Virus record (IMG/VR): IMGVR_UViG_3300027370_000003
Location: 1-64,000 of that record
Length of the DNA stretch: 64,000 nucleotides
Direction: 5' to 3' (one strand)
Source: a virus
Below the pieces are notes generated by a model. The model made no database searches, was not told the DNA's origin, and saw only the letters and a program-made list of their open reading frames with translations. The position numbers were made by a program, and so were the translations under genes. Positions 6,108 through 54,326 of the stretch are shown in pieces. How positions within the stretch are numbered: the stretch's first letter is position 1; each line of letters opens with the position of its first letter.

Positions 6108-6464
6108 CTAGTCTTCCTTTGGGTCGCCTTTTTTATCGTGTGGCTCTGTGTACTCTAATAGATTCGGCAACCAATACAGGAACGTGAGATAGGCCGCTGC
6201 TCCCGCGTATATTAATAGAGCAGGAAAATGGATCACGGTTAGGCTATTCGCGGCATCTAATGCTTCGACAGAAGTGATATATTTATCGAGTGCCATGCGG
6301 GTAGCTAGATTGCTGCCATCCCAAATAAACGCGCCAATAAAAAGCGCGAACATGGCGGCCATTAGGACGTTATAAATCAGTCGGTAGAGTTTGTGGTGCC
6401 TGTAGGCTAAATATCCCAGCGCCGATGCGGCCAGACCCGCCATACTCACGAAGAATTTGTCCAT
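6108..6464 (-). CDS. Cargo membrane protein of the IS1-like element
   Basis: 118 residues from the ATG at 6464 (a second ATG at 6503 would add 13 residues). Hydrophobic segments at ~3-17, ~28-46 and ~75-100 predict three membrane helices, with a basic HHKLYR stretch between the first two and an acidic/basic tail. No family recognised. It lies head-to-head with the small basic gene at 6510. A membrane partner beside an ATPase is a common arrangement in defence cassettes, but nothing here proves such a role. Confidence 0.6.
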   Translation of the reverse strand: MDKFFVSMAGLAASALGYLAYRHHKLYRLIYNVLMAAMFALFIGAFIWDGSNLATRMALDKYITSVEALDAANSLTVIHFPALLIYAGAAAYLTFLYWLPNLLEYTEPHDKKGDPKED

Positions 6465-6509
6465 TGGACCCAGCCCTATCTTGTCAAGCTTACCGCTAAG
6501 CATTACCCT

Positions 6510-6758
6510 ATGACAATGCCCCGAGGCCCTAAAGGCGAGCGTCGCCACGCCGACGTGAACAAGAACGCGGTCCTGATCGCCAAGATCGCGACGGGCGAGA
6601 TCGAGGACGATGGCAAAAGCCCCGCTGCCGTCGCTTTAGGGCGCATGGGCGGTAAAGCACGTGCGCTAGGTTTGTCGGCGCAAAGGCGAAAGGCCATCGC
6701 CAAAAAGGCCGCTAAAGCTAGATGGAAAGCGTCCCCTGCTCGCGTTGGAGAAGAATAG
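6510..6758 (+). CDS. Small basic GGKARA-type nucleic-acid-binding protein (cargo)
   Basis: 82 residues. C-terminal half AALGRMGGKARALGLSAQRR-type sequence followed by IAKKAAKARW is a signature of a small, very basic protein family common in alphaproteobacteria and often beside transposases. An alternative ATG is 6 bp downstream. It converges on the ATPase gene with a 41-bp overlap. Likely binds DNA or RNA; function not known. Confidence 0.75.
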   Translation: MTMPRGPKGERRHADVNKNAVLIAKIATGEIEDDGKSPAAVALGRMGGKARALGLSAQRRKAIAKKAAKARWKASPARVGEE

Positions 6759-40711: not shown

Positions 40712-41542
40712 ATGCCCAAGCCACAGACCTTTCAGGAAGTCCTAGCCGCTGCAATCGCGGACATCGCGGAATCGGGATATGACAGCGCAGAGCGTGTTGA
40801 AGGTTGGATGCGTAAACTACGCCTTGCCGCCGAAACGTCGCTGATCTCCGCCGCCTCGCTCGAACAGCAACTCCGCGACGGCCTAGCCGCCATCTACCGC
40901 CGGATGGTCGATCAAGGCGGGGCGCTCCGCTACAACCCCGGGATCGAGCGGTTCACGCTGGAGAAGCTCCGGCCGGCGCTGCGCGGGGAACTCGACCGCC
41001 GTATCCTGGCGTCCGCGAACCTCATCAAGCTCAACCGGGCCCAGGCAATCGACAAGACCCTGCAACGGTTTCAGGGCTGGTCGACGTCGATCCCGAAGGG
41101 CGGCGTGTCGGGGGAGACGAAGGCCGAGGTTAAGGCCAATGTGCGAAAGTCGCTCGCGTCTTTGCCCTTCACCGAACGCCGACTTTTGACGGACCAGGGC
41201 CATAAACTTATCGCGTCGATAAACGACATAATCGCCGCTGACGGAGGTGCCATCGCTGGGCAATGGTCGAGCAGGTGGCGCCAAGCAGGATATGATTATC
41301 GGGAAGATCACAAAGAACGCGACGGAAAATTCTTTCTCATCCGCGATTGTTGGGCTCATGTGGCCGGCCTCGTCAAAAAGGGGAAGGCTGGCTACGTCGA
41401 TGAAAGCACCGCTCCCGCTCAGGAGCCATTTTGCCGTTGCAGTTATAAATATGTGTACAATATCAGAGATTTACCTGATGACATGGTGACGGTAAAAGGC
41501 AAGAATGCGCTTCGAGAAGTTCGAGAGAAAATGAGCGCATGA
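40712..41542 (+). CDS. Head morphogenesis (minor head) protein
   Basis: 276 residues. Long helical N-terminal part, then VKANVRKSLASLPFTERR, QWSSRWRQAGYDYREDHKERDGKF in the C-terminal region and EPFCRCSYKYVYNIRDLP, the end of the SPP1-gp7/Mu-gpF class. Binds the portal during head assembly. From about base 41260 to the stop the codons become more A/T-rich, up to the homing endonuclease that starts in its ATGA overlap. Confidence 0.8.
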   Translation: MPKPQTFQEVLAAAIADIAESGYDSAERVEGWMRKLRLAAETSLISAASLEQQLRDGLAAIYRRMVDQGGALRYNPGIERFTLEKLRPALRGELDRRILASANLIKLNRAQAIDKTLQRFQGWSTSIPKGGVSGETKAEVKANVRKSLASLPFTERRLLTDQGHKLIASINDIIAADGGAIAGQWSSRWRQAGYDYREDHKERDGKFFLIRDCWAHVAGLVKKGKAGYVDESTAPAQEPFCRCSYKYVYNIRDLPDDMVTVKGKNALREVREKMSA

Positions 41543-42357
41543 CCGACCTCCTAATCCACTACATCTACGTGGCCTTCTATCCAAACGGCATCCCTTGCTA
41601 TGTCGGGAAAGGGAAAGGGGGCCGGTGGCTGCATCATCTCACGAAAAGTCATAACAAGCGGCTTGCCGGAGTTGTGAGAAAGGCAGGTGGCAGTATACCG
41701 ATCATAAAACTCCGCGAAAACTTGACTGAGGCGGAAGCGTTTGAAATCGAGATTGCGCTTATTGCCGCGATTGGCCGTCGCGATCTGGGAACGGGGCCAC
41801 TGCTTAATCTGACGGCCGGTGGGGATGGCGTTGTTGGACATCGACGAACGCCCGCGCAGCGCAAGCAAATGAGCGTATCTAGAAAGGGTATCGTCCCTAC
41901 CAGGGAGACGGCGGCCAAGATCAGCGCCAAACTGAAAAACGTTCCGAAAACCCCGGCACATTGCGCCGCCGTCAGCGCGGCTAAAAAGAACGTTCCGCTC
42001 GGACCAATGAGCGCATTGCAACGAATGGCAATCGGCGATGGCCATCGGGGCAGAAAACGTTCGGCAGAGGAATGTGCATCGCTAAAGATAGCGGCTGAAA
42101 AACTACGAAATGATCCGGTTCGAAGCGCCCAAAAGAGTGCAAGAATCAGTGCTGCGCTCACCGGCCGAAAACTATCGCCTCAGACCTGCGCCAAGATCAG
42201 TGCCGTCCAGAAGAACAAGCCCAAGGGGCCGATGAAGGAAACGACGAAGCTGAAACTTCGAGTCGGCAGGATTATAAAACGCTGGTTCGCGGAGCAGCCG
42301 GTTTTCGTTTCCGAATATGCGAAGTGGGGAGACGGCGCGTCGGCCGGCTTGCTATGA
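41539..42357 (+). CDS. GIY-YIG homing endonuclease 1
   Basis: 272 residues. YIYVAFYPNGIPCYVGKGKG is the GIY-YIG core (LEM3-like variant), RWLHHLTKSHNKRLA contains the conserved basic part, EAFEIEIALI the catalytic Glu region. Lys-rich NUMOD3-like helices follow (RKQMSVSRKG, AKISAKLKN, SARISAALTGRKLS, AKISAVQKNK). Free-standing; mobile DNA that copies itself into related phages. Overlaps genes on both sides by 4 bp. Confidence 0.92.
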   Translation: MTDLLIHYIYVAFYPNGIPCYVGKGKGGRWLHHLTKSHNKRLAGVVRKAGGSIPIIKLRENLTEAEAFEIEIALIAAIGRRDLGTGPLLNLTAGGDGVVGHRRTPAQRKQMSVSRKGIVPTRETAAKISAKLKNVPKTPAHCAAVSAAKKNVPLGPMSALQRMAIGDGHRGRKRSAEECASLKIAAEKLRNDPVRSAQKSARISAALTGRKLSPQTCAKISAVQKNKPKGPMKETTKLKLRVGRIIKRWFAEQPVFVSEYAKWGDGASAGLL

Positions 42358-42554
42358 GCGACCACTTCGACGGGACGCGCAAATCGTGGCTGGCCTATAC
42401 GGGGCCGGAGAAGAGCCACGCCCGCGCCGATTCGGCAGGACCAGAAATCGCCCCGAAGATCGGCCCCGAGGCGGAGCGGTATCGGCTGCAGAAAATGGTG
42501 GACGGGCTGAAGCGGGACTACGCGCGGATTTACGGGGCGCCACCAGCCGCCTAA
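42354..42554 (+). CDS. Small head-region protein (66 aa)
   Basis: MSDHFDGTRKSWLAYTGPEK; Pro/Ala-rich middle, charged helix at the end. Directly behind the homing endonuclease. Confidence 0.6.
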   Translation: MSDHFDGTRKSWLAYTGPEKSHARADSAGPEIAPKIGPEAERYRLQKMVDGLKRDYARIYGAPPAA

Positions 42555-42584
42555 AGTCTGGGAATCAACAGGGAGACTGAAACT

Positions 42585-52326: not shown

Positions 52327-52371
52327 ATGCCCATACTTCACCTCGGAGTAATTGACCGAATCGCGCTATAA
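52327..52371 (+). pseudogene. Leftover 5' end of the gene at 53185, cut off by a homing endonuclease
   Basis: MPILHLGVIDRIAL then stop. The intact gene behind the endonuclease starts MILHLGVQDILYQ, so ILHLGV.D is present on both sides. The DNA differs at many third positions, as expected if the endonuclease brought its own copy of the start. Confidence 0.6.
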
Positions 52372-52378
52372 TTGGCCT

Positions 52379-53188
52379 ATGGGGCTGATTTATTACGGCT
52401 ATCTGCACGCGCGTCCAGACGGCTCAATCTTTTATGTCGGAAAGGGCAAAGGGCGCCGTGCTTGGGACTTCTCCCCCAAGCACCGTTCACCGCGCCATCG
52501 CGAGATCATGCGCGAATATGGGGTCTCGACTATCCAAGTCAGTCTAATTTACGCTGAAACGGAAACTGAAGCGTTCGCTATTGAGCGGGAGTGGATCTCA
52601 TCGCTTCAGAGAGCTGGTATTCGGCTCATAAATCTAACTGAGGGCGGAGAAGGAGTTCCTTTGACGCCAGAGATGATTAAACAGCGTGCTGCTACTCTAA
52701 GAGCAACCAATTTGTTACCAGAGGTAAAGCGGCGGCGCAGCAAAACGATAAGCCTCAGGTATCAGGACCCGGAATACAAAGAGCGGTTTGACGTTCTCAT
52801 GGCAACCGTTGCACGTCGCCCTGATGTTTTGCCAAAAAAGCAAGCGGCTATTGAACGTGTTCGTGCTGACCCGGAAATTGAGACGCGTCGAATTAAATCA
52901 ATGAAATTGGCATTCAGTAAGCCGGAATATAGAGAACTAAAACGCCAGATCTCCCTTAAAGGTGGCAATAGACCGCCGACCTATCATGGAGGTGATCATC
53001 CAATGGCGAAAAAAGTGATCTGCATCGAAACGGGAACGATCTTTCCGACTGTGAGGGCCGCGATAGCGTGGTTGAAGGCAAACGGGTCATCGCGCAAAGC
53101 GGAGCCATGTGCTATTGTCGCAGCCTGCCGTGGCCGTCAAAAATCGGCTTATAAATTTCATTGGAAATATGTGAAGCCCGTCAAATGA
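52379..53188 (+). CDS. GIY-YIG homing endonuclease 2
   Basis: 269 residues from ATG 52379. YYGYLHARPDGSIFYVGKGK gives the GIY-YIG core; RHREIMREYG and EREWISSLQ the catalytic region; INLTEGGEGVPLTPEMIKQR starts a NUMOD-like part, and SFPTV-type VICIETGTIFPTVRAAIAWL near the C-terminus is a NUMOD1-like DNA-binding segment. More A/T-rich than its neighbours. Its stop overlaps the next ATG. Confidence 0.92.
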   Translation: MGLIYYGYLHARPDGSIFYVGKGKGRRAWDFSPKHRSPRHREIMREYGVSTIQVSLIYAETETEAFAIEREWISSLQRAGIRLINLTEGGEGVPLTPEMIKQRAATLRATNLLPEVKRRRSKTISLRYQDPEYKERFDVLMATVARRPDVLPKKQAAIERVRADPEIETRRIKSMKLAFSKPEYRELKRQISLKGGNRPPTYHGGDHPMAKKVICIETGTIFPTVRAAIAWLKANGSSRKAEPCAIVAACRGRQKSAYKFHWKYVKPVK

Positions 53189-53691
53189 TTTTGCATTTAG
53201 GTGTCCAGGACATTTTGTACCAACCTCCGCAGCCGACGGGACCACAGCGCAAGGCTCCGAAGCGCGTCCCGAAGAAGCCGCGCGCGAAGATTCATAAGCG
53301 GTGGGCGGCGAAGTATCAGAACATCACGACGGGCGACGTCGCGGAAATCCTCGAAGCGAAGTACCACATCTTCGAGATTTTCTACCGCGAACACGAGCAG
53401 GACGTGGCGAACGACGTGACCGACTCGATGCGAGGCGCGGTCGAAAGCTATCTCATGGGCGCGCCGCTGAACCTCAACCCGTTCGGCTCGGCGACGTCGT
53501 CGATTGAAAATCGGATGAAGCAGTTCTTGGCGAACAGCGAGATGGAGAAGATCGGTTTCCCCGGCGTGCCGACGCAGGCCGCGATCGAAGGGATCAGCCA
53601 CCGTTTCAAAAACCCGCGGACCGGCGTCCGGCGCCCGAGTTTCGTGGACACTGGATTATATTTGGCTAGTATGACCGCATGGGTCGATTAG
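53185..53691 (+). CDS. Virion protein (head completion/neck type)
   Basis: 168 residues. Basic start (PTGPQRKAPKRVPKKPRAKI), then ILEAKYHIFEIFYREHEQDV, MRGAVESYLMGAPLN and a C-terminal SFVDTGLYLASMTAWVD. Between two homing endonucleases; both of its ends look recoded (A/T-rich start, A/T-rich last ~40 bases). Size and position suit a neck or tail-completion protein. Confidence 0.7.
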   Translation: MILHLGVQDILYQPPQPTGPQRKAPKRVPKKPRAKIHKRWAAKYQNITTGDVAEILEAKYHIFEIFYREHEQDVANDVTDSMRGAVESYLMGAPLNLNPFGSATSSIENRMKQFLANSEMEKIGFPGVPTQAAIEGISHRFKNPRTGVRRPSFVDTGLYLASMTAWVD

Positions 53692-54326
53692 CCTACGTCT
53701 ACATCGTCTTTCGGCCGAATGGCGTCCCGCTTTATGTCGGCAAAGGCTCTGGCGAACGTCTAGGCCGCCACGCTGCGCGTGCGCAATCAAACCCGCACTA
53801 TGGCGCAGTTCTGAAACAAGCTGGTGGAAAGTTGCCCGTCGCTGTCGTCGCTCGTGGGTTAACAGACCGCGAAGCCTATGCGCTCGAAAAACTTCTCACA
53901 TGGGCTATTGGCATCGAATCGGAAGGTGGACCACTCGTGAACTGCGGCCACGGGGGCCATGGAGGGCCGTCCGGTGTTAAGAGATCGAAGGAGTTTCGCG
54001 CTAATCGACGAGTCAAGGCGATCGAGGCGTGGCAAGACGAAACGTTTCGGGCGAAGATGCTTCGGCCAGATCGCCTCCGGTACCGAAACACGAGCCCCAG
54101 ATCGGAAGCATTCAAGGCCGCCGTATCCAAAACGATGATGGGGAATACTCATACGCTCGGGTTTAATCATTCCGAGGAATCGAAAGCTTTGATGAGGGAG
54201 AGGTGGGCTGATCCGGAATGGAGAGAGCGTGAGATGGAGCGCCGTCGGTTAGAGCAGGACTATTCGGGAAATGCCAAAAAGGGTTGGGTAACGCGAAAAG
54301 CAAATATCGCCAAGAGGAACGCATAA
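53679..54326 (+). CDS. GIY-YIG homing endonuclease 3
   Basis: 215 residues. AYVYIVFRPNGVPLYVGKGS, then RLGRHAARAQSNPHY, REAYALEKLLTWAIG, a Gly/His-rich link and NUMOD3-like helices (SEESKALMRERWADPEWRER). Starts 13 bp before the upstream stop and ends in TAATG with the next virion gene. Confidence 0.92.
   Translation: MGRLAYVYIVFRPNGVPLYVGKGSGERLGRHAARAQSNPHYGAVLKQAGGKLPVAVVARGLTDREAYALEKLLTWAIGIESEGGPLVNCGHGGHGGPSGVKRSKEFRANRRVKAIEAWQDETFRAKMLRPDRLRYRNTSPRSEAFKAAVSKTMMGNTHTLGFNHSEESKALMRERWADPEWREREMERRRLEQDYSGNAKKGWVTRKANIAKRNA

Follow-up and report, generated by a model that had tools for sequence, protein, structure and literature searches.

A homing endonuclease gene in this phage sequence appears to carry with it a replacement for the piece of the virion gene that it breaks. 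With a probability of roughly 80%, we read HEG1 as a free-standing homing gene whose mobile unit, the nuclease plus recoded codons 1 to n of its target, restores the gene that was cut. The window (the whole stretch of 64,000 nucleotides that was analysed) comes from a virus record that spans 74,160 bases and includes phage structural genes, and the locus presents the following features:

52327 to 52371, + strand: stub, codons 1-10 of the native target gene start (52327-52356), then four non-homologous codons and a stop
52356/52357, + strand: insertion point, where homology to the nuclease-free L001/L002 ends at GAC
52379 to 53188, + strand: HEG1, GIY-YIG homing endonuclease of 269 aa (phrog_314 homing endonuclease, E 3.6e-13)
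53185 to 53226, + strand: recoded copy of the gene start, its own ATG overlapping the HEG1 stop (ATGA)
53185 to 53691, + strand: restored target gene, 168 aa, phrog_6560 (E 2.9e-40; 87% amino acid identity to L001/L002)

The original prediction was that the endonuclease had left a duplicated start of its target gene, and this was confirmed: the stub at 52327 is followed by the intact gene at 53185. The reading frame at 52327 opens MPILHLGVIDRIAL and stops at 52371, leaving a 14-codon stub that reads ATG CCC ATA CTT CAC CTC GGA GTA ATT GAC up to the break and CGA ATC GCG CTA TAA beyond it. The restored gene opens ATG ATT TTG CAT TTA GGT GTC CAG GAC at 53185 (peptide MILHLGVQDILYQPPQP). In the sister phage L001/L002, the virion gene is uninterrupted and starts MPILHLGVIDIAYIAPQP, carrying MPILHLGVIDIAYIAPQPTGPQ... 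in one ORF (start DNA ATG CCC ATA CTT CAT CTC GGC GTG ATC GAC ATT GCG TAC ATT GCG CCG). Since a nuclease-free sister displays the uninterrupted gene, the observation of a duplicated start is secure. None of the window's nucleases was present in the L002 record (L002 in G001). The target gene sits in the virion module, and the role of its product is unassigned.

Comparison with the sister also assigned each piece to its origin. Up to GAC, the stub was identical to L001/L002 at 26 of 30 positions (87% DNA identity over 30 bp), and the gene body presented 82% DNA identity to L002, whereas the restored start, like the 3' end of the gene, had no blastn match in any of the fetched loci. Because stub and body match the sister and the restored start does not, these alignments identify the stub as the native start and the restored start as the newcomer, in line with the proposal that the endonuclease came with a recoded start. 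The left and right breakpoints place nuclease and recoded codons 1 to n as an insertion at one point. That insertion had been expected near codon 8; the insertion itself stands, but the break lies after codon 10 (GAC^ATT), with recoding running to about codon 14. The proposal that the gene kept working follows from its open, conserved reading frame. As for relatives without the endonuclease, L001/L002 have the start fused to the gene in a single ORF, and the finding that would have spoken against the prediction, a nuclease-free relative in which the short peptide stands apart, did not occur in L001, L002 or L003.

Judged by its codons, it is the codon choice and not the peptide that is unusual in the window repeat. 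As predicted, the repeated peptide is written with different codons: six of the seven codons with identical amino acids differ between stub and restored start. Both leucines of the repeated peptide go from CTN in the stub to TTR in the restored start, and TTR makes up 11% of the leucine codons in the window's structural genes. Stub and restored start are mismatched at 7 of the 15 bases that encode the LHLGV core, compared with no more than six mismatches in any of the 171 pairings of 19 other sequences, made up of the relatives and the stub. The peptide match taken alone is only modest evidence: its anchored score was 31, in a control of random pairings whose 99th percentile was 30 and whose maximum was 40. 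The repeated peptide is short and lies within a conserved motif, and peptide conservation alone proves little because LHLGV is found family-wide.

By its catalytic-domain residues (Tyr, Arg, Glu, Asn), HEG1 is a GIY-YIG homing endonuclease: Y8, G15, Y19, G21, R27, E69 and N85 were invariant in the 15 sequences compared. Its profile matched PDB GIY-YIG chains (E 2.8e-9), and the fold comparison gave a weak match to those entries and to UvrC. A Pfam search at E 0.01 gave no match for HEG1 or for any of the ten proteins searched. No near-identical DNA was found among GenBank phages, and exact peptide patterns retrieved no close relatives of HEG1 or HEG2 in viral contigs. We rejected an intron- or intein-borne endonuclease, as stub, HEG1 and restored gene are separate ORFs, each with its own start and stop, and Rfam gave no RNA match, group I intron included, in the 51.4-55.0 kb region.

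From this arrangement we infer a possible course of events. HEG1 would cut the uninterrupted gene near codon 10, and repair from the carrier genome would insert the unit at the cut, with the native stub as left homology arm and the gene body as right one. The native start would be left as a dead, stop-terminated stub. The nuclease would be translated next and, as its stop overlaps the recoded ATG, the gene would be re-initiated by translational coupling to give a full-length protein. ATGA-type overlaps favour translational coupling, and the overlap would thus link the rescued gene's expression to the nuclease. Synonymous recoding most likely removes the recognition site, so that the allele would not be self-cut; it most likely also strips the homology between stub and copy, so that recombination would not delete the nuclease. 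Both effects of recoding are inferred and not shown, and the earlier suggestion that recoding hides the gene from cutting is inferred only from the recoding, without cleavage data. GIY-YIG homing sites are about 40 bp, and recoded stretches of ~40 bp or more therefore fit the model. Cutting of the empty allele, copying into it, immunity, mobility and coupling are likewise inferred; what bears on homing is presence and absence only (HEG1 in the window, none in L002).

The same layout recurred elsewhere. We fetched 80 related nuclease loci and then 73 more; only 125 loci were covered by a test of whether both flanks of a nuclease encode the same gene end, anchored at start codons, with the random pairings above as control for duplicated starts. 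Portal-gene loci L067, L076, L074, L079 and L177 scored 72-149, and each has a truncated native start, the nuclease and then a complete portal start (phrog_146); the portal genes of L076 and L079 run off the contig downstream. L123, a small gene, scored 32 and, like the window, was only a borderline case against the control. The L079 repeat covers 34 residues, and 23 of its 30 codons with identical amino acids are changed. In L074, the truncated native portal start continues in frame into the nuclease (L074:2378-3268), so that this enzyme may be a portal-N-terminus fusion. Mirror images affect the 3' end: in L047, SMRAWVED closes the target gene and a leftover SFRAWVED lies beyond the nuclease, and in the head-morphogenesis gene of L238 IAAGPLAAPGSFS stands before the nuclease and LAAGPLAAPGVNS after it (score 47, where the control did not exceed 40). 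Native end, nuclease and recoded copy were found in this order at five portal loci and one small gene, and in mirrored form at two 3'-end loci, and the alignments establish that insertion of a nuclease plus recoded prefix arose independently at several genes. At the junction of nuclease stop and restored start, the window, L067, L074, L076 and L177 share an overlap of 4 nt (ATGA or GTGA). The overlap extends to 8 nt in L079, and in L123 the two are instead separated by 8 nt.

Three further candidates were left out of this count: L129 and L099 scored as duplications and look like repeat-rich tail-fibre-type sequence, and the long noisy alignment of L072 was treated as out-of-frame. No cassette was found unchanged in two different backgrounds. 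Fourteen homing endonuclease genes in named phages had no detectable stub or 3' remnant, so the form is not universal (a minority), or remnants decay quickly.

At portal loci with nuclease-free relatives, the breakpoints could be placed precisely. Against the nuclease-free L139, the L076 stub reaches ATGCA and right-hand homology restarts at ATGCAGAT; against L179, the L177 stub reaches TA(T/C)CA and the right side restarts at TATCAATTATG. DNA identity of L076 to nuclease-free relatives was 97% for the stub and 83% for the body, with one marginal 34-bp match for the restored start; for L177 it was 84%, 88% and, over 61 of 133 bp of the restored start, 72%. The recoding spans start codon to insertion point; beyond it, the gene is native again and its identity returns to the native level. 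This span from cut site to gene end is exact in L076 and L177; in the window it covers about codons 1-14, with the break at codon 10. Among 80 portal loci, a second copy of the start was found in none of the 77 without an upstream nuclease (best score 37), so that the separate short peptide was not seen here either, and a stub was found in two of the three with one (not in L155/L059; Fisher p 0.0009). This p-value is indicative, since some of the 80 loci are near-identical.

The copies in L079 have an amino acid identity of 0.86 at a nucleotide identity of 0.65, above all of the 42 nuclease-free portal pairs of similar DNA identity (maximum 0.73). Those of L076, L067 and L177 fell in the top 2-4% of nuclease-free pairs for amino acid identity at a given DNA identity; the L074 copies diverge like ordinary homologues. 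Pooled over loci, 86 of 118 codons with identical amino acids differ, against a nuclease-free mean of 0.43 (pairs with amino acid identity >=0.6). This excess is supportive and not exact, because codons are not independent and the window was compared with a different gene.

The target gene of the window also bears a second element, just outside the 52327-53220 interval of the original prediction:

53650 to 53691, + strand: last 14 codons of the target gene, recoded (no blastn match)
53679 to 54326, + strand: HEG2, second GIY-YIG endonuclease (phrog_314, E 7e-7), starting within the last codons of the target gene

Compared with L002, which lacks HEG2, all nine codons with identical amino acids among the last 14 were synonymously changed; in the body the figure was 48 of 121 (Fisher p 0.0004). 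Third-position GC over the last 13 codons was lower in four loci with the nuclease (the window, L008, L009 and L047) than in 31 without it (MWU p 0.002). HEG2 would be the mirror image of HEG1, with the last ~14 target codons swapped for recoded ones. No 3' remnant is left in the window, where the HEG2 stop touches the ATG of the next gene. Relatives of HEG2 occur at the equivalent gene end in L008 and L047 and, decayed, in L009-L013. The gene end of L024 had only a weak synonymous excess (p 0.09), and we do not claim it as recoded.

A third nuclease of the window behaves in another way:

41539 to 42357, + strand: HEG3, third GIY-YIG endonuclease, splitting a head-morphogenesis gene (profile match E 1.8e-89)
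42354 to 42554, + strand: native C-terminal part of the split gene, 66 aa, its start overlapping the HEG3 stop (ATGA)

The sister L215 has one head-morphogenesis gene of 330 codons and no nuclease. In the window (40712-42554), the head gene has 276 codons and is followed by HEG3 and a 66-codon ORF with the native C-terminus; positions 42417-42574 present 88.6% DNA identity to L215 7346-7503. A recoded 3' end was considered for HEG3 and rejected, as there was no synonymous excess (7/14 vs 88/192). On this comparison, HEG3 is the known split-gene outcome with two complementary parts and no recoding detected. The 3'-type recoded-end nuclease of L238 lies in the same head-morphogenesis gene family.

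The duplicated start could also stem from ordinary coconversion, in which the nuclease brought the gene start of a distantly related former host and the codon differences are plain divergence. Fungal mitochondrial mobile ORFs have been explained in this way (PMC3630166), the L074 pair would fit it, and so would a family-wide LHLGV. We regard this explanation, the main rival, as possible but unlikely: no other pair differs in the core as much as the window's restored start and its own stub (7 of 15 bases against a maximum of 6), L079 falls outside the range of the 42 nuclease-free pairs, the recoding ends at the insertion point, and no donor was found among the fetched loci. The donor-relic and immunity readings overlap, because a donor piece could be retained for immunity.

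Two copies around a nuclease would likewise result from tandem duplication of the start in this phage, nuclease insertion between the copies and drift. Both copies should then lie near the sister, whereas the stub is at 87% and the restored start has no match; with the duplication absent from all 77 nuclease-free portal loci, we find this very improbable. HEG3 in this genome and the T4-like precedents (PMC2988022) lend some plausibility to a split gene or intron, with the upstream peptide as a functional exon or subunit, comparable to the nuclease-split nrdA of Aeh1. However, the downstream ORF already holds the whole N-terminus, the stub stops four codons beyond the break, and the Rfam search of this region was negative, which makes a split highly improbable. 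All relatives of the window derive from metagenomes, so an assembly artefact merging two phage strains has to be weighed as well; it is extremely improbable, since many independent contigs present this layout at differing genes and positions, and their junctions are in frame and show ATGA overlaps. The original prediction as a whole is largely supported, and we retain a mobile nuclease that restores the cut gene with a recoded start.

The nearest known kind of element is the fungal mitochondrial mobile ORF (mORF) with a replacement C-terminus. Such mORFs carry foreign C-termini in Allomyces atp6 and in Glomus sp. atp6, atp9, cox2 and nad3 (PMC3630166); the native remnant is near relatives, the inserted end is divergent and the hybrid is expressed (PMC3630166). 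As in mORFs, an endonuclease in an essential gene supplies a divergent replacement end, and the native remnant matches nuclease-free relatives. Two defining features of mORFs are met: the divergent end completes the host gene (the 5' end, plus the 3' end in L047 and L238), and the displaced native end matches nuclease-free relatives (L076 97%, window 87%, L177 84%). However, mORFs are mitochondrial, mostly LAGLIDADG (GIY-YIG in atp9) and always at the 3' end, whereas the elements described here are phage-borne, GIY-YIG and mainly at the 5' end, with prefixes of about 10-45 codons whose restart codon overlaps the nuclease stop. The window element works like an mORF but is not a member.

Among phage systems, the accessible text of the 2010 T4 mobile-element review describes the T4-like Seg family as free-standing GIY-YIG genes that have neither intron nor intein, are located among essential genes of the phage and home with coconversion (PMC2988022), and HEG1 is alike in its setting. 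That text contains no word beginning 'duplicat' and describes no carried gene end or stub (PMC2988022). As far as their accessible parts go, this review and a phage-nuclease survey (PMC10448857) cover split genes and embedded promoters, and no carried gene ends. In mobE/nrdA of Aeh1 and mobA/gene 60 of T4, the endonuclease likewise interrupts a structural or replication gene, which then codes for two subunits. HEG3 fits this form, whereas the HEG1 target is restored whole. A mobE/nrdA-type split was rejected for HEG1, as the downstream ORF is full length.

The layout also resembles an engineered design. In HomeR, the nuclease sits at its own cut site with a recoded coding sequence from cut to gene end (22 or 27 aa), and recoding is meant to resist cutting and to avoid recombination with the native copy (PMC7968924). 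Esvelt et al. proposed 3'-end recoding for drive stability (PMC4117217). HomeR is a Cas9/gRNA fly drive recoded at the 3' end; the phage element is natural and recoded at the 5' or 3' end. The home-and-rescue layout, a recoded segment running from cut site to gene end, is met, exactly so in L076 and L177. A phage precedent or a 5'-end version was not found in the literature searched (open-access subset only). What we did not find described in the open-access literature, and appears new here, is the phage setting and the 5' form with translational restart.

We lean, with some reserve, towards the view that phages harbour natural rescue-type homing elements, in which a GIY-YIG nuclease travels with a selected recoded piece of its target, is self-immune and occupies the 5' or the 3' end of virion genes (those for the portal and head morphogenesis, and phrog_6560). 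Entry of an endonuclease gene into an essential gene is expected to require an intron, an intein or an intergenic site; these loci suggest another route, the replacement of the broken gene piece. If true, such elements can occupy conserved coding sequence without intron or intein, and losing the nuclease would carry a cost, as the start of the rescued gene is read through it. This is the logic of engineered home-and-rescue drives, apparently evolved in phages. Paired native and recoded sites in one genome offer a test for selected immunity. The model accounts for short orphan ORFs and for anomalous ends of genes next to phage endonucleases, and it warns that gene ends adjoining such nucleases can mislead trees and start-site annotation.

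Several minor observations concern the related loci. An Rfam RF02996 int-alpA RNA was detected in L076:2395-2461 (+ strand, 51.9 bits) and L067:2383-2450 (+ strand, 39.6 bits; cut-off 35.8). It lies between portal stub and nuclease and is thus apparently part of the mobile unit; it was absent from 40 other nuclease loci and the window region. In L155/L059 (isolate-type record 2713896841), the nuclease is directly upstream of the portal gene without a detectable stub, and L058 (643886021) has a related nuclease. In the named phages L226, L227, L221 and L228, GIY-YIG ORFs overlap the starts of other genes (head-morphogenesis, DNA polymerase I, terminase and TPR), resembling 5' insertions without a stub. 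In L009-L013, at about 6438-6640 (L012 3855-4055), the HEG2-type nuclease has decayed to a ~67-codon ORF and the recoded end is kept, possibly a cutting-resistant relic. Finally, at L008:1280-2200, a decayed nuclease with in-frame stops divides a protease/scaffold-like gene, with the peptide CGG.PRGIT on either side of it.
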